Program-made: the position numbers and the translations under genes | IMG/VR virus record: IMGVR_UViG_3300017598_000622 | Location: 1 to 22,146 of that record | Source of the DNA: a virus | Direction: 5' to 3' (one strand) | DNA: 22,146 bases | In this document: positions 6,372 to 21,129 of the stretch, piece by piece | Layout: each line of letters opens with the position of its first letter | Position numbering within the stretch: the first letter of the stretch is position 1 | The notes under the pieces: model-generated | Databases searched by the model: none | The model's input: the letters and a program-made list of their open reading frames with translations, nothing else | What the model was told of the DNA's origin: nothing

Positions 6372-7673
6372 ATGGCAGGGCGGAAAATACTTAATGCAAA
6401 TTATTTAGATAGCGATTGGCAAGATGAAATTGAAAGCAAAAACCTTGTAAAAAAAGGATTCTTTAATTTAGAGTTTGATTTAGATTTAAGTATAAAAGCG
6501 GGGAGCGGTGTTGATATTAGCGGCGTTCTTTATGTTTTTGATTCCCTAGAAGCTCCAACGGGAACCGCGTCAACTTCAGGATTCGGCTATATTAAGCTAA
6601 TTGGAGGGGCAACTTCAACAGCGGTTTTTTCTACTGAAGAACCAATATTCGATTATAATAAAAAAGGTTGGTACAATTCCACCGGCGAAAGGTTTGTGTT
6701 AAGGTTTAAAGATGAGTTCACAAGTCAAATTTATTTAAAAGATGAGAACTCGATAGATCAACACGAGCAAAAAATCATATCGGGATCTTTATTGATTTCT
6801 GATTGGACAATACGGACAACGCCTAACCTTGCTTTTAAATCTGTAACTTATGGAAACGGGTTGTTTGTAGCCGTTAATCAAGACGGTACTCTTTCTGGAG
6901 TCATGACCTCACCAGATGGAATCACTTGGACATCTAGACAAGCCGCCTCTATTAACGCATGGAAAGCGGTAACTTATGGAAACGGTTTATTTGTTGCGGT
7001 TCATGCTGATAATACTTCAACTGGAGTCATGACCTCACCCGATGGAACCACTTGGACATCTAGGACGACTTCTGCTTATGATTGGAATTCGGTAACCTAT
7101 GGAAACGGTTTATTTGTTGCAGTTGGTGGTTCTGGATCAGACAGGGTTATGAGCTCACCAGATGGGATCACTTGGACAGATCGCTCAGCTTCTGTTGATC
7201 TTCCTTGGAACGATGTAACCTATGGAAACGGTTTATTTGTTGCGGTTGCTTCTTATTCTGGTACTGACAGGGTTATGACGTCACCAGATGGAATAACTTG
7301 GACATCCAGAACTTCTCCAGTTTTAAATAATTGGTCTTCTGTAACCTATGGAAACGGTTTATTTATTGCTGTTAGTAGTTCGGGAACGGGTGATAGAATC
7401 ATGAGCTCTTCTGATGGAATCACTTGGACTACTCGAGTGAATCCTGTTGATAATGACTGGTGGGCTGTAACCTATGGAAACGGTTTATTTGTTGCGGTTG
7501 CATCAACTGGAACGGGCGATAGAATCATGAGCTCTTCTGATGGGGTTAATTGGATTACAAGGGTAAACCCTGTTGATAATTCATGGGCTGGCATTGCTTT
7601 TGGTGAAAATGTTTTTATTGCTGTTTCTACAACCGGATCAAGCAATCAAGCCATGACTTCAACAATTATATAA
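6372..7673 (+). CDS. Tail-associated seven-bladed beta-propeller protein A
   Basis: Residues 1-140 form an N-terminal domain, opening with SDWQDEIESKNLVKKG, that is shared with the next gene's product and is probably the attachment part. Residues 155-433 are seven repeats of 41-42 residues with the pattern W..VTYGNGLFVAV...G....MTSPDGITWTSR. The SPDGITW core resembles the Asp-box of BNR/sialidase propellers. The seventh repeat stops after MTSTII and lacks its last strand. The missing W-T-R strand is present just before repeat 1 (DWTIRTTP, residues 144-151), so a closed seven-bladed propeller with 'velcro' closure is expected. No catalytic residues of a sialidase can be identified. Position between distal tail and tip genes suggests a receptor-binding or tail-decorating protein. 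Confidence 0.7.
   Translation: MAGRKILNANYLDSDWQDEIESKNLVKKGFFNLEFDLDLSIKAGSGVDISGVLYVFDSLEAPTGTASTSGFGYIKLIGGATSTAVFSTEEPIFDYNKKGWYNSTGERFVLRFKDEFTSQIYLKDENSIDQHEQKIISGSLLISDWTIRTTPNLAFKSVTYGNGLFVAVNQDGTLSGVMTSPDGITWTSRQAASINAWKAVTYGNGLFVAVHADNTSTGVMTSPDGTTWTSRTTSAYDWNSVTYGNGLFVAVGGSGSDRVMSSPDGITWTDRSASVDLPWNDVTYGNGLFVAVASYSGTDRVMTSPDGITWTSRTSPVLNNWSSVTYGNGLFIAVSSSGTGDRIMSSSDGITWTTRVNPVDNDWWAVTYGNGLFVAVASTGTGDRIMSSSDGVNWITRVNPVDNSWAGIAFGENVFIAVSTTGSSNQAMTSTII
6834..7670 (+). repeat. Seven tandem propeller-blade repeats, 123-126 nt period
   Basis: The codon for the Tyr/Phe of the YGNG-like core recurs at 6849, 6975, 7098, 7221, 7347, 7473 and 7599, that is every 123 or 126 bases. A 24-base block starting GTAACCTATGGAAACGG is identical at 7092, 7215, 7341 and 7467. 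Conservation at DNA level including third positions indicates recent duplication or gene conversion between blades. Confidence 0.9.
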
Positions 7674-7683
7674 GGATAAAAAG

Positions 7684-9051
7684 ATGGCACGAAGATTAGA
7701 AAATAAAATAGTTGGTGCTACAAATTGGCAAGATGAAATTGAGTCAAAGAACCTTTTAAAGCTTGGGTATTGTAATTTGAGTTTTACCAATAAAGAAAAT
7801 ACTCTTGAGCCAGTAATCAAAGCTTTGGGGAGTGTTGAAGTAGATGGAAGCATATTCAAGTTTGACGCTGACACTGTAATTACAGGAACTTATCCAGAAG
7901 AAGGGTGGGTTGTTGTTGATAATTTAGGCGTTCCAAGTTTTGTAGATGGTGGAAGTATTCCAGACTTTGATAACGATAAACAAGGCTTTTATTTTAGCAC
8001 TGGTGAAAGAATCGTTTTGAGGCTTCGATATAATTACAAGGTTCCAATTTCTGATAAGCTTTCTTGGTCTCTATATAATCAAGATAAGAAGTTAAAAAGT
8101 TTGACTACTAAAGACTGGATAAGAACAGCGGCTCCATTATCTAGGTCATGGGGGGGCATTACTTATGAACAAGGTTTATTTGTGGCAGTGGGGCGAACTG
8201 GAGGAACAACGACTTCGGTTATGACTTCACCAGATGGAGACACTTGGACAACCAGAACAACTCCTTCAGATTCAGAACTATATGATATTACTTTTGCTAA
8301 TGGCTTATTTGTGGCCGTTGGTGGAAACTCAAACATATTGCACTCAAGAATATTAACCTCTCCAGATGCCACAACTTGGACAACAAGATACACCTCCACA
8401 AGTAACGGTTTTCTTGGGTGTGTTGCTTATGGTAACGGGGTATTTGTTGCTATAGGAGGACAAGTAGAAACCATTATTACATCATATGATGGAATCACTT
8501 GGACAAAACAAGATGACACGCCTTCAGGCTTTGGCTTTAGAGATATTGCTTTTGGTAACGGTATATTTGTAGCCTCTAGATCTTCCACCCTTATTGGTGG
8601 AACTTTAGAAAGTGGAGTCATGACGTCACCTGATGGAATCACTTGGACTGATAGAGAGACGCCAGATGATAATTGGGCCACAGTTGCTTATGGAAACGGT
8701 CTATTTGTGTCTATCTCTTCTATGACCACAAACTATATAACGTCCATAGATGGAATAACTTGGACTGAAAGAGACCATGGGTTTCTCCGCTCTTGGTGGG
8801 ACATTATATATAAAAATAATATGTTTGTTGTATGCGGTGGATTACAGATTTCTTTTCCAAGTGGTGACCCTGTAGCAGGACAAACAGTGAATAATATATT
8901 AACCTCTTTTGATGGGATTAATTGGATAGAAAGAGAAGCCCCGCTTAATGATACGGATTGGTATCGAGTAGCCTATGGCAATAATAAATTTGTAGGTATC
9001 GGCTTCGAGAGTTCAGCCGAAAAAATATTGACCAGTAAACTCAAAGTTTAA
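7684..9051 (+). CDS. Tail-associated seven-bladed beta-propeller protein B
   Basis: A 455-residue paralogue of the preceding gene. The N-terminal domains share NWQDEIESKNLLKLG and a GFYFSTGERIVLRL segment (WYNSTGERFVLRF in A). The same seven-repeat region begins at about residue 155, after an isolated KDWIRTAAP strand that can complete the last blade. Blades vary more than in protein A (41 to about 55 residues), with loop insertions in blades 4 and 6, and the Asp-box-like motif degenerates (SPDATTW, SYDGITW, SFDGINW). It is separated from A by ten bases with a weak AAGGA-type site, so both should be made from one message. Tandem paralogues of this kind could form a heteromeric receptor-binding structure or give dual host range. 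Confidence 0.7.
   Translation: MARRLENKIVGATNWQDEIESKNLLKLGYCNLSFTNKENTLEPVIKALGSVEVDGSIFKFDADTVITGTYPEEGWVVVDNLGVPSFVDGGSIPDFDNDKQGFYFSTGERIVLRLRYNYKVPISDKLSWSLYNQDKKLKSLTTKDWIRTAAPLSRSWGGITYEQGLFVAVGRTGGTTTSVMTSPDGDTWTTRTTPSDSELYDITFANGLFVAVGGNSNILHSRILTSPDATTWTTRYTSTSNGFLGCVAYGNGVFVAIGGQVETIITSYDGITWTKQDDTPSGFGFRDIAFGNGIFVASRSSTLIGGTLESGVMTSPDGITWTDRETPDDNWATVAYGNGLFVSISSMTTNYITSIDGITWTERDHGFLRSWWDIIYKNNMFVVCGGLQISFPSGDPVAGQTVNNILTSFDGINWIEREAPLNDTDWYRVAYGNNKFVGIGFESSAEKILTSKLKV
8149..9048 (+). repeat. Seven diverged propeller-blade repeats
   Basis: Seven units of the pattern W..I.YGNGLFVAV...........SPDGITWT.R can be followed from residue 156 to the C-terminus. Spacing is less regular than in the neighbouring paralogue, and DNA identity between units is low. 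This indicates an older, un-homogenised copy of the same architecture. Confidence 0.75.
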
Positions 9052-14173: not shown

Positions 14174-14401
14174 ATGAAGTTACAAGGAAGGAAGTTTTTT
14201 GGTATGATTCTTGGGGTAGTGGTTAATACCATCATCATCATCAGCGGTTATTTATTGGCTCCTGAGTCAATTGACAACACAGTGTTGATCTTTTCCATGG
14301 GGATCACTGGAACGCTAATCATGGCCTTTATTGGTGGCAATGTGTGGAGCGCTTGGGTCAAGTCAAAATACTTTGTGAGTGAGTTAAAAGATGAAGAGTA
14401 A
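14174..14401 (+). CDS. Holin-like two-helix membrane protein
   Basis: The 75-residue product has two hydrophobic segments, FGMILGVVVNTIIIISGYLL (about residues 9-28) and VLIFSMGITGTLIMAFIGG (about 37-56). A short charged tail ends in ELKDEE. Size, topology and position immediately after the endolysin fit a class II holin, which would release the amidase through the inner membrane. An AAGGAG site precedes the ATG. The last 11 bases overlap the next gene. Sequence alone cannot separate a holin from other small phage membrane proteins. Confidence 0.55.
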   Translation: MKLQGRKFFGMILGVVVNTIIIISGYLLAPESIDNTVLIFSMGITGTLIMAFIGGNVWSAWVKSKYFVSELKDEE

Positions 14402-14729
14402 TTTTTATTCTTTTGGGTTCATTACTTTTTTAATTGGGATCGTGTTATCTAGCGCGGTGCATGTTGCTATTAATTGGGAAACACCATTTGATATGGAGGA
14501 GCGAAGAAATGAAATACTTGCTATGTCTGCTGGTGATGTTGTTGATACCTTTATCCCTGAGCTTCGGCCAAGACTTGAACAACTCAGTGAAGAAACCGCC
14601 GACGATCTTGTCAGGGCCATCCTCGGAGAGCTTAGAGGCACGTTTGAAGATATTAGCAAAGAAAGCTATCTTAGAGGCTACACAGACGGCAGTCAAGGAA
14701 TCGGTGGCAATATATCAGCCTCAGATTGA
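14391..14729 (+). CDS. i-spanin-like membrane protein (outer frame of overlapping pair)
   Basis: The 112-residue product starts with an N-terminal transmembrane segment (FGFITFLIGIVLSSAVHVAI). An acidic, largely helical domain follows (ERRNEILAMSAGDVVDTF, RPRLEQLSEETADDLVRAIL), ending in a glycine-rich tail. An inner-membrane anchor with a periplasmic helical domain is the topology of lambda Rz. A second gene in the +1 frame begins at 14509 inside it and shares 221 bases. The start has only a weak GAGTGAG site and overlaps the holin-like gene by 11 bases, so coupled translation is likely. Rz homology is inferred from topology and order, not sequence. Confidence 0.5.
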   Translation: MKSNFYSFGFITFLIGIVLSSAVHVAINWETPFDMEERRNEILAMSAGDVVDTFIPELRPRLEQLSEETADDLVRAILGELRGTFEDISKESYLRGYTDGSQGIGGNISASD

Positions 14730-14814
14730 GCACTTAGAACAAGAAAACCTAGCCTTGAAAATCGGGCTAGGTGTGGCGGTTGTTGTTTTTGGAGCTCTTT
14801 ACGCTACAAAATAA
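14509..14814 (+). CDS. Secreted/membrane protein embedded in the +1 frame (o-spanin position)
   Basis: The chosen ATG at 14509 has a strong GGAGG site ten bases upstream and begins with a clear signal sequence (MKYLLCLLVMLLIPLSLSFGQ). The frame is open upstream to 14434, but that start lacks these features. The 101-residue product continues with a helical stretch (LEARLKILAKKAILEATQTA, IEHLEQENLALK) and a C-terminal hydrophobic segment (IGLGVAVVVFGALY). Its location inside the i-spanin-like gene mimics Rz1 in Rz, but there is no lipobox cysteine near the signal-peptide end. It is therefore not a typical o-spanin. With two hydrophobic ends it may span the periplasm itself. Its last 16 bases overlap a leftward gene. 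Confidence 0.6.
   Translation: MKYLLCLLVMLLIPLSLSFGQDLNNSVKKPPTILSGPSSESLEARLKILAKKAILEATQTAVKESVAIYQPQIEHLEQENLALKIGLGVAVVVFGALYATK
14744..14771 (-). terminator. Intrinsic terminator of the leftward operon, inside a rightward gene
   Basis: Read on the minus strand, CCTAGCC (14771-14765) pairs with GGCTAGG (14754-14748) across a 10-base loop. It is followed directly by TTTTCTT (from 14747). It lies about 30 bases beyond the stop of the 48-residue membrane protein gene. It also lies within the coding sequence of the convergent spanin-like gene, where the same bases encode ENLALKIGLG. Confidence 0.7.
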
Positions 14815-15932: not shown

Positions 15933-16586
15933 CTAAGCTTTATTTTGTCTATAGTCATCCCAATCACAGAAAACAAGGCTTGACGTGTCTCCTGTTAGCC
16001 TAGAAATCAATCCAGAGCCTAATTCGTTATGTAAATCATCCCCTCTGAGGTTACTTGTGAGGATTGTTGGCTTCATTGCGCCATATCGTCGATCAATGAT
16101 TTCAAAAATATCTGACTTTTCGCTTTGGGTTCCTGTTGTTCTCCCTAGCTCTTCGATGGCTATCAAGTCAAGCTTTACAAGTTCTTCAATAGCTTTATCA
16201 GATTTCCATGATTCCCGTTCTCTGAGCCACCTCACAAGGCTTTTTTGTGTAAAATACATAACCTTTTTTTTATCCATAAAAGCCCTTCTAAGCATTCCAT
16301 AGGCTAGGTGTGTTTTACCGTTTCCATATGCACCGTATAGAATCACATTAGAGCCATTCTTGTTTTGAGCTTTGCAAATATCTAAAGCTTTTTCAGCGTT
16401 TTCTATGCCTTGCGTTTTGTAGGTTGCTAGGCTTGTTTTTTTGTATCTCATCGGAAGAGTGTCTTCAAAAGATTGCGCTAATCTATGTCTACCCTCTGAA
16501 ATAATTTTATCATTATAGGCTTTTTCTTCTTCGTCGGTCATAACGTTCAGCCCGTTTACAAATGTCTCAAAGTCTGGTTTATTCAT
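15933..16586 (-). CDS. DnaC-like helicase loader ATPase
   Basis: The 217-residue protein is an AAA+ ATPase of the DnaC/IstB type that loads the replicative helicase at the phage origin. It shows Walker A GAYGNGKT (residues 85-92), Walker B LIAIEE (141-146, with Glu-Glu in place of the commoner Asp-Asp/Glu), sensor 1 ILTSN (175-179) and an SRL arginine-finger-like box (195-197). The N-terminal 60 residues, with MTDEEEKAYNDKII, would contact the helicase. Its ATG overlaps the replisome organizer stop by four bases, so initiator and loader are translationally coupled. No helicase gene is in the window, which suggests use of the host DnaB or one encoded elsewhere. Confidence 0.88.
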   Translation of the reverse strand: MNKPDFETFVNGLNVMTDEEEKAYNDKIISEGRHRLAQSFEDTLPMRYKKTSLATYKTQGIENAEKALDICKAQNKNGSNVILYGAYGNGKTHLAYGMLRRAFMDKKKVMYFTQKSLVRWLRERESWKSDKAIEELVKLDLIAIEELGRTTGTQSEKSDIFEIIDRRYGAMKPTILTSNLRGDDLHNELGSGLISRLTGDTSSLVFCDWDDYRQNKA

Positions 16587-17359
16587 TTAAAAATTCCTTG
16601 GTTTGTTGTCTCACTTCCAAATATATTGGATGACCCCTTTTGTTGCAAATAACTTTCAAACTTTGGCCCGAAAAGCGTAGACGGCCTGATCCATGGTTTT
16701 GATTTATTATCGTTTTTCCATTCGGCATTTTTCACAGTTATTACGTGCTGAAAGTCTTCAATGGTGAAACCATCATTAAAACGAGCTTTAATATGTCGTT
16801 TACTATCAGCCGAGATTTTAACAGTTCTAAGGTTTTGACCAGTGATAGAGTTGAATAGCTCGATAATGTCACGGTATGGCACAGGGCATTCTTTTTCTTC
16901 TTTCTTGTTCTTATCTAATTCTAATCTATTCTTATCTTCTTCTGTTGCGTGACGTCCCGTGACTGTCACGGGACAAGGTAATGATTTAGCCCTTTGTTTT
17001 TGCTTTCTGAGCCTGTTTTGCTCACGTATCTTGTCTAATCCTTCAATATTCTGGTGTTTTTCCCAATTGATAATATTAATATGATCCTCAATTTCTACCA
17101 TATCGAAGTCTTGAAAAGTATTTAAAGCTAGTCTAATTGTATTTATAGGTCTATTAAATACTGTTGATAATATCTCGGCTGTTGTCGGTATTTTCTTTAA
17201 AATGTAAGCTTGACCATCATCATTAACTTTACCTGCAAGAGTGAGTAATTTAAACCATATGACCAAGATAGCATCTCTGTCAGGAAGGCTATCTATTAAC
17301 TTAATTTTATCATCGTCGAAAATATCAGTAGTGATCTTTATCCATTTTACATCAGCCAT
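16583..17359 (-). CDS. DnaD-like phage replisome organizer
   Basis: The N-terminal domain (MADVKWIKITTDIFDD..KI, then IWFKLLTLAGKVND.G and a final NWEKHQNIEGL) is the phage replisome-organizer winged-helix domain (Rep_Org_N). The C-terminal domain (RHIKARFNDGFTIEDFQHVI, then KPWIRPSTLFGPKFESYL) is the conserved phage replication C-terminal domain that binds ssDNA and partners. A polar linker of about 50 residues joins them. I chose ATG 17359 (258 residues) because family members start 'MAdvkWIKl'. A TTG at 17377 in the same frame would add six residues and has no clear binding site. The gene overlaps the antirepressor by eight bases. It probably binds the phage origin and recruits the loader next to it; no iterons were seen within it. 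Confidence 0.88.
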   Translation of the reverse strand: MADVKWIKITTDIFDDDKIKLIDSLPDRDAILVIWFKLLTLAGKVNDDGQAYILKKIPTTAEILSTVFNRPINTIRLALNTFQDFDMVEIEDHINIINWEKHQNIEGLDKIREQNRLRKQKQRAKSLPCPVTVTGRHATEEDKNRLELDKNKKEEKECPVPYRDIIELFNSITGQNLRTVKISADSKRHIKARFNDGFTIEDFQHVITVKNAEWKNDNKSKPWIRPSTLFGPKFESYLQQKGSSNIFGSETTNQGIFK

Positions 17360-18068
17360 TTGAACCAGCTTTTTCAATCATTTTTCTGATAAAATTCAGC
17401 CCTTTTTGACTAACCATAGTCTTTAAATTAATCTGAATATCACCGTTTTTCTCCCATCGAGATTCAATAATTTTGAAGTATCCACAATCAACATATTTTT
17501 GATATGGTTCATTCTTACCAAATAAGACTTTTTGATCTCTGAGCAATTGAAACAGGTTGTTTCTACCTAGACCTTTGATAGCTAACACCTTGGATACTTC
17601 TTGCATACTGATTAGATTCTTCGAGCCTGTCACAGCATCAAAGAACTCGGCTTTAGGCTTCATTTCTTCAATTTGTAAGGCTTGTTTTTTCATCTCTTTA
17701 TCAGCTAATAGAAGAGCTTCGGCGATTAGAACTCTAGGTGTTTTTTGTGTCTGTTTGTTTTCTTGCTCGAATCTAACAAGGTAGCGCCTGACTTCCTTAC
17801 CTTTTTCTGTGTGGGCTGATGCTGCAAAAACCTTAAATCCCTCCAAGGTCATTAAAATATTCGATACGTTTTGGGTTCTGAACCCTCCTTGGTGAGGCAC
17901 TTGCTTTACCGTTTGGGAAAGCAAGTAGTCTTGGCCCTCTTCAAGCTCTTTAATTATTCTGTCTTTTGCTTTTCGCTTGCTAGAATAACCCACCATTTCC
18001 CATACATGATCTAATGACACTTTATTAGTATCAATCCAAGTTTGAACTACTTCTTTCGTTAATTCCAT
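17352..18068 (-). CDS. Phage antirepressor (MSV199/AntA-like N-terminus, KilAC C-terminus)
   Basis: The 238-residue protein has an N-terminal domain with VSLDHVWEMVGY and ILMTLEGFKVFA....TEKGKEVRRYLVRFE, like the AntA/MSV199 class of DNA-binding antirepressor domains. A short coiled coil and a KilAC domain (PKAEFFDAVTGSKNLISMQE, then NNLFQLLRDQKVL, ending KGLNFIRKMI) follow. Such proteins neutralise or bypass a repressor during induction. ATG 18068 has GGAGGG five bases upstream. The frame continues upstream without a stop, and a TTG at 18134 with its own GGAGG would give a 260-residue form. The leader carries a terminator-like hairpin, described separately. Confidence 0.85.
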   Translation of the reverse strand: MELTKEVVQTWIDTNKVSLDHVWEMVGYSSKRKAKDRIIKELEEGQDYLLSQTVKQVPHQGGFRTQNVSNILMTLEGFKVFAASAHTEKGKEVRRYLVRFEQENKQTQKTPRVLIAEALLLADKEMKKQALQIEEMKPKAEFFDAVTGSKNLISMQEVSKVLAIKGLGRNNLFQLLRDQKVLFGKNEPYQKYVDCGYFKIIESRWEKNGDIQINLKTMVSQKGLNFIRKMIEKAGSNG

Positions 18069-18085
18069 AACGCCCTCCAAGGTAT

Positions 18086-18167
18086 AAAAAAACGCTTTGA
18101 CTTTGTGAGCTAGTAGGCAACTAGGGAAGGCCAAATTGAAAACCTCCACTCTCACAAAATCAAAGCG
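18086..18167 (-). promoter_or_regulatory. Leader hairpin / attenuator of the antirepressor gene
   Basis: On the minus strand CGCTTTGATTTTGTGAG (18167-18151) pairs with CTCACAAAGTCAAAGCG (18109-18093). That is 17 pairs, one of them U-G in the leftward RNA; the opposite strand would have a C-A mismatch there. Seven Ts follow (18092-18086), then the GGAGG of the gene (18078-18074). A nested CTAGT/ACTAG hairpin (18124-18120, 18114-18110) abuts the 3' arm. This is the form of an intrinsic terminator placed in a leader. Confidence 0.7.
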
Positions 18168-18191
18168 ATCTTGTTAAAATTAATTTTACAC

Positions 18192-18211
18192 TATCGGAGC
18201 CTAACCCGATA
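18192..18211 (-). promoter_or_regulatory. Dyad at the predicted start of the antirepressor message
   Basis: TATCGG (18192-18197) and CCGATA (18206-18211) form a perfect 6-base inverted repeat with an 8-base spacer. It lies where the transcript from the predicted promoter would begin. It may be an operator or the first hairpin of the leader RNA. Confidence 0.4.
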
Positions 18212-18216
18212 AAAAT

Positions 18217-18245
18217 AATATAAACCTAAAGCCCTGAAGAATCAA
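18217..18245 (-). promoter_or_regulatory. Predicted promoter for the antirepressor-replication genes
   Basis: On the minus strand TTGATT (18245-18240) and TATATT (18222-18217) are separated by 17 bases. Matches to the sigma70 consensus are four of six and five of six. Transcription would start near 18210 and make a leader of about 140 bases. It overlaps a hairpin beyond the lipoprotein gene. Confidence 0.45.
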
Positions 18246-18256
18246 GGCTTTTTTTT
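18228..18256. terminator. Hairpin with flanking T/A run after the lipoprotein gene
   Basis: AAAGCC (18228-18233) pairs with GGCTTT (18246-18251) and the plus strand continues into a run of eight Ts (18249-18256). It sits just past the stop of the leftward lipoprotein gene, where a leftward terminator is expected. The T-run faces rightward, so it would work better on the plus strand. The direction of action is unresolved. Confidence 0.4.
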
Positions 18257-18257
18257 A

Positions 18258-20728: not shown

Positions 20729-21129
20729 GTTATTCAATAATAACAAAGCCGGCGGTTATGAAAGCTTGGATTAGTAACATAGATTTAGATGAGCAGAAAT
20801 TCTATGAATTGGTAGTGTCTGAACCTAAAGGCGGGACGGGAGCACAAAATAAAACCTTTCACGGTCTTCTTCATGAGTTTGTGCCTTATATGTCTTATAT
20901 TGATTGGGATGAAGCAAGGGAGGCCGTATTGATGAAATATGGCAAAGCAAAAGAGGGGACTATCAACGGTATTACTTTTAGGGTTTGCCCGTCATGGGCT
21001 AAGGCCACAAAGGATTATAGAGCTAAAATAATCAACGGCCTAATTTCTGAGATGCTGGAAGCCGGCGTTAATGGTAAAATCTTTGATAGTTTAGTCTCTG
21101 AATGGAAAGCTCTAGTAGGTGAATTATGA
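20725..21129 (+). CDS. NinB-like recombination protein
   Basis: The 134-residue product begins at GTG 20725, overlapping the ERF stop. Its plan resembles NinB/Orf recombination mediators of lambdoid phages: an N-terminal strand and helix, YELVVSEPKGG, QNKTFHGLLHEF (NinB-type 'QN..yha.l'), DWDEAREAVLMKYG, a strand with FRVCPSW, and a C-terminal helix KIINGLISEMLEAG. NinB binds single strands and helps load recombination proteins, which would fit a position directly after ERF. The similarity is partial, and only a profile search would settle it. Confidence 0.5.
   Translation: MSYSIITKPAVMKAWISNIDLDEQKFYELVVSEPKGGTGAQNKTFHGLLHEFVPYMSYIDWDEAREAVLMKYGKAKEGTINGITFRVCPSWAKATKDYRAKIINGLISEMLEAGVNGKIFDSLVSEWKALVGEL

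Follow-up and report, generated by a model that had tools for sequence, protein, structure and literature searches.

A probable C4-like leader RNA with a predicted intrinsic terminator ahead of a phage antirepressor-replication operon

The window analysed here is a stretch of 22,146 nt that constitutes a lone 22-kb virus record. Its leftward strand carries an antirepressor gene, whose product takes the virus out of dormancy, and directly behind it the replication genes:

17352-18068, minus strand: antirepressor with a KilAC C-terminus (PF03374, phrog_63; profile matches), start ATG at 18068
16583-17359, minus strand: replisome organiser (PF09681, PF09524; profile matches), overlapping the antirepressor stop
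16586-15933: DnaC/IstB-type loader, presumed to lie on the antirepressor transcript
15895-15521: nuclease-like gene, presumed to lie on the same transcript

Relatives of the antirepressor's C-terminal half (40-56% identity) occur in IMG/VR and in genomes that include Treponema MAGs. For the HTH gene upstream, the collections searched yielded no relatives, and the relatives of the replisome organiser (L003-L011) lack an adjacent antirepressor. At one of these loci a 16-17-bp stem with an inner hairpin (L003:3915-3970) lies directly before the replisome organiser, and no antirepressor is present there.

Directly before the antirepressor, the minus strand can form a 17-bp stem (18167-18151 with 18109-18093) that has one U-G pair and a 41-nt loop; its 5' arm is CGCTTTGATTTTGTGAG and its 3' arm CTCACAAAGTCAAAGCG. 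Seven Ts follow (18092-18086), and 7 nt separate them from the GGAGG (18078-18074) that serves the ATG at 18068. With its 17 bp and the T7 right behind it, the stable stem has the form expected of an intrinsic terminator. The stem, the T-run, a nested hairpin, a second GGAGG and an in-frame TTG all lie where a preliminary description of this DNA had placed them. The 190-nt leader has a predicted folding energy of -60.7 kcal/mol (z = -4.95), whereas its shuffles lie at -41.0 (sd 4.0) and none was equally stable. The predicted fold is a closing stem, P1, that encloses two small hairpins, P2 and P3. Reading the stem as rightward RNA was ruled out, since the U-G pair becomes an A-C mismatch and no T-run follows. 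No Rfam family reached its gathering score in the window; matches to mir-193, MicX and Phe leader at lax settings were far below gathering and were taken as chance. The features of the leader, in the direction of transcription, are:

18228-18251, no strand assigned: hairpin A, AAAGCCTTGA TTCT TCAGGGCTTT, which either ends the upstream lipoprotein gene or covers the -35 as a palindrome
18217-18245, minus strand: promoter-like site TTGATT-17-TATATT (9/12), predicted RNA start ~18210
18192-18211, minus strand: 5' target hairpin B, UAUCGG GUUAGGCU CCGAUA, loop UAGGC (18203-18199), a1-like target
18151-18167, minus strand: P1 closing stem, 5' arm (fold; comparison with L269)
18126-18147, minus strand: hairpin P2, GGAGGUU (18147-18141) with GGCCUUC (18132-18126), containing the loop GGAGG and TTG 18134 (fold)
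18125-18131, minus strand: b'-like segment GCCUUCC, the complement of GGAGGGC (18078-18072) at the antirepressor SD
18110-18124, minus strand: hairpin P3, CUAGU UGCCU ACUAG, containing the a'-like GCCUA (18118-18114)
18093-18109, minus strand: P1 closing stem, 3' arm (fold; comparison with L269)
18086-18092, minus strand: T7 run, predicted intrinsic termination with the RNA end at ~18086 (sequence)

The span from the promoter-like site (18245-18217) to T7 agrees with the terminated RNA of about 125 nt proposed earlier. A hairpin stands at the place of hairpin A in L269 as well. On the plus strand, the region of hairpin A (18228-18257) also reads as a rightward terminator-like hairpin followed by T8; together with a rightward promoter-like site at 18151-18180 (TGTTAAAAT), this hairpin could yield an RNA of ~70 nt antisense to the leader start.

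Of the homologous leaders, L269 and L344 are nearest, and both retain the promoter region, the long stem with its T-run and a 5' hairpin of the form CGG-N8-CCG. The 5' hairpin, a motif that L344 has in common with the window, lies just after the -10-like box in all three (window GUUAGGCU, L269 AUUCGACC, L344 CUUCGCAC), and its spacing from the promoter-like site is similar in L344 (TGgTATAAT) and L269 (TATTAT). The alignment of the L269 leader scores 33, whereas shuffles average 19.2 with a maximum of 30 (0/1000 as high), and both GAGGTTTTC and TTTTTTTATACC(T)TGGAGGG are kept. When 22 stem pairs are compared with L269, 11 have changed on both sides yet remain paired, 2 have changed on one side, 7 are identical and 2 are broken. 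L269 also forms a hairpin at the position of P2 (UAGAGG/CUUCUA). The preliminary description had suggested alignment with related phages as a check on its terminator-like leader. The leader withstands it, as both homologs keep the stem and T-run and the changes in the stem are compensatory.

The loops of these leaders change together with their targets. A loop segment is complementary to the loop of the 5' hairpin at 7/7 positions in L269 (target UUCGACC, antisense GGUCGAA), 7/7 in L344 (UUCGCAC/GUGCGAA) and 5/5 in the window (UAGGC/GCCUA). Three positions show concerted changes of the pair: in the order L269, L344, window, these are C-G, C-G, A-U at the first, A-U, C-G, G-C at the second and C-G, A-U, C-G at the third. 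At the level of sequence, this comparison demonstrates that the stem, the T-run and the 5' hairpin are conserved and that the loop complementarity varies in concert in the homologs. The long stem could instead be a site of the RNase III type that matures the antirepressor message, affecting its processing or stability. A near-perfect 17-bp stem just before an SD would suit such a site, but this explanation leaves both the retention of the T-run and the loop-target complementarity of the homologs unaccounted for, and we regard it as very unlikely.

The preliminary description had also proposed that ribosomes starting at TTG 18134, within the loop, melt the terminator and make a longer antirepressor. 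The 41-nt loop does contain a GGAGG (18147-18143) well spaced from this TTG, and the frame is open into the antirepressor, which would add 22 codons for a total of 260 aa; an in-frame GGAGG or AGGAG with a start is found in 0.26% of shuffled loops. However, none of 16 other elements has a start with an SD in its loop. The frame is closed in L344, L052, L130, L192, L198 and L218, and in L269 it is open with no start. The GGAGG in the loop is otherwise explained because it is the 5' strand of hairpin P2, which also forms in L269 and is conserved as a hairpin. Since the TTG and SD are absent elsewhere and the GGAGG is paired in P2, the translation-coupled 260-residue form is not supported, and we consider it extremely improbable.

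The same build, found by a scan of upstream regions, recurs in some twenty antirepressor leaders, among them L049, L052, L130, L159, L186, L190, L192, L198, L202, L214, L216, L218, L258, L261, L269, L321 and L344. Stems matching the quality of that in the window were present in 4/114 antirepressor upstream regions (the first non-redundant set), as against 0/1140 shuffles and 4/861 control regions. A DNA search in phages found no near relative of the window leader, a pattern search of IMG/VR found no copy of its stem, and a MAFFT alignment of the leaders misaligned the stems. The T-run is retained in nearly all related elements and is absent in the C4 of L186. Seven elements (L269, L344, L052, L190, L216, L159 and L186) have an unpaired linker of 7 nt before the 3' arm, and each of these linkers has an exact upstream complement of 6-7 nt, 7 in most; the window element is without this linker. 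Complementarity reaches 11 bp in L258 (UGCCUAGAACA/UGUUCUAGGCA), a leader with the promoter TTGACA-17-TATAAT, and extends over 9 bp in L261, 7 bp in L214 and, loop to loop, 6 bp in L192. Across 19 elements, a set picked partly for architecture and not for complementarity, the combined p for upstream complementarity was 4e-5; for 13 elements, a set also assembled partly by architecture, p was 0.003 upstream and 0.0007 downstream. In L242:2648-2730 the loop UUGACGGUUCUUC shows a perfect 13-nt complementarity to a hairpin between the stem and the antirepressor. Four antirepressor loci of one genome (G279), L198, L208, L209 and L210, are near-identical and carry the same element, and in L161 and L166 several matches to sRNA-Xcc1 (RF02221) lie around antirepressor genes.

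The architecture of these leaders recalls C4, the antisense RNA that controls ant in P1 and P7. The ribosome-binding site lies partly under the b' loop of C4, whose a' loop binds sequence further upstream and determines specificity; its 5' end is generated by RNase P (PMC5320573). Two of the related antirepressor leaders match the Rfam C4 model (RF01695), L159 with 57.0 bits and L186 with 60.3 bits. In L159 the C4 is followed by TTTTTGTT; in L186 isrK and c4-a1b1 (RF03163) lie upstream of C4, isrK being a separate unit before it. In the window the C4 model finds nothing, either at gathering (45 bits) or at E<=10, and L269 and L190 do not match it either; the isrK covariance model (RF01394) also has no match in the window.

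Complete C4-like systems are nevertheless present where the Rfam C4 model gives no score, in L190 (596-767) and L216 (reverse complement, 692-860), both prophage leaders in genomes of the phylum to which a Treponema MAG belongs. Between L190 and L216 the b' segment changes from GUUCUGU to GCUUAGU and both of its targets from ACAGAAC to ACUAAGC, while a' changes from GGGUUCA to GGUUUCG and both of its targets from UGAACCC to CGAAACC. Thus, the loops change together with duplicated targets, upstream and downstream. In P1 and P7, the a and b loops set the immunity type, and by analogy the changes between L190 and L216 resemble P1/P7 heteroimmunity. The preliminary description was right to name c4 as a relevant precedent and understated it, given the C4 architecture and the Rfam C4 at the same position in relatives.

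The window element is like C4 in several respects. Its closing stem has 17 pairs, the number in the Rfam model (which also has two hairpins and a linker of 7 nt), and encloses ~40 nt with small hairpins; it lies on the same strand as the antirepressor and directly before it. Candidate a'- and b'-like loop segments show short complementarity to a hairpin upstream and, weakly, to the SD of the gene. Unlike classical C4, which is cut out by RNase P (PMC5320573), it has a T-run terminator. Moreover, its target loop would lie at the extreme 5' end of the predicted RNA, it lacks the downstream a2/b2 target copy (a2 is present in L190, L216, L159 and L186), and it has no covariance-model match. By model score, therefore, the window element is not a member of RF01695; it is C4-like in anatomy, and its homologs show C4-type pairing.

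The pairings available within the window itself are short. GCCUA of P3 and UAGGC of hairpin B can form 5 bp, the best helix with the 75 nt upstream. For this match p is 0.011 when loop is compared with loop and 0.048 when the whole inner loop is taken; being so short, it depends on the homologs for support. GCCUUCC and GGAGGGC can form 7 bp over the antirepressor SD (p ~0.07), the window's own target being the best of 13. The duplex energy of the whole loop is not above that of shuffles (p 0.85). Complementarity of hairpin P3 to the RBS of a dCTP deaminase (11 nt, 21112-21122) was within chance for the window. Since RF01695 gives no score and the pairings are short, antisense action in the window itself is moderately supported.

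Our proposal is that the element is probably a C4-like leader RNA that ends at an intrinsic terminator and would control the leftward antirepressor-replication operon. The RNA would begin at ~18210 with hairpin B, followed by P1-P2-P3 and T7, and most transcripts would end at ~18086 to give a small RNA of ~125 nt. In this RNA, GCCUA and the UAGGC of hairpin B may pair through their loops, whether in cis or between two leader molecules, and GCCUUCC could pair with the antirepressor SD. With read-through also low, the small RNA would in this way hold antirepressor levels down, and it would restrain a superinfecting phage whose loops are of the same type. Read-through, or titration of the small RNA, would produce the message for the antirepressor, replisome organiser and loader. 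We infer the promoter, termination, the small RNA, its action in trans and the role in immunity.

The leader could also be a plain conditional terminator, that is, an early/delayed-early boundary passed by a phage antitermination factor, with the loop complementarity irrelevant. The strong stem and T-run, with only an SD between terminator and gene, are consistent with this simpler arrangement, as are the weakness of the complementarity in the window and the retention of T-runs in relatives whose loop sequences vary. However, it does not account for the co-variation of loops and targets in the homologs or for C4 at the same place, and we identified no antiterminator gene in the window. We therefore consider it a possible but rather unlikely explanation, and favor the C4-like leader.

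Other antirepressors are also under RNA control. In Gifsy-1, terminator read-through into the antirepressor message is proven for isrK-orf45-anrP (PMC4825925). As proposed for the window, there is a small RNA that ends at a terminator, read-through past it makes the antirepressor message, and the longer RNA is a target of the shorter; unlike the proposed small RNA, IsrK activates, through orf45, and the window has no isrK match. The preliminary description named no precedent for an attenuator with a coupled long isoform; read-through of a terminator into an antirepressor message was already known from Gifsy-1. In P22, the small RNA sar limits an antirepressor (PMC12197685). Sar is an antisense transcript that pairs with ant mRNA, whereas the window element is on the sense strand. 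We found no indication of a convergent transcript of the sar type over the antirepressor RBS, as the sole rightward promoter-like site listed nearby (18151-18180) points away from it.

Control of phage immunity by C4 has been described for proteobacterial phages, and the 2010 description of C4 covered only Proteobacteria and phages (PMC2864571). In the literature we consulted, an incomplete coverage that included the 2010 and 2021 RNA-motif papers, we found no such leaders outside Proteobacteria. The present comparisons extend C4 logic, including loops that co-change with their targets, to uncultured phages and to the phylum that a Treponema MAG belongs to. The forms seen there escape the C4 model, and the logic appears to be coupled to an intrinsic terminator. 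On the sequence evidence, we see an about even case for a terminator-coupled C4-like family, consisting of a 5' target hairpin, a long stem with a complementary loop and a U-run, that widely heads antirepressors of spirochaete and other phages, is missed by current RNA models and has fast-changing loops that set the immunity type. These leaders offer candidate immunity-specificity loops for phage groups without a known switch, and a mistaken second antirepressor start has been removed.

Elsewhere in the window, two overlapping frames at the end of the late genes (14391-14729 and 14434-14814, within 14391-14814) each have a hydrophobic stretch near the start and may be a nested spanin-like pair. 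Two tail-region proteins encoded at 6372-9051 contain many copies of a YGNGLFVAV...MTSPDG repeat.
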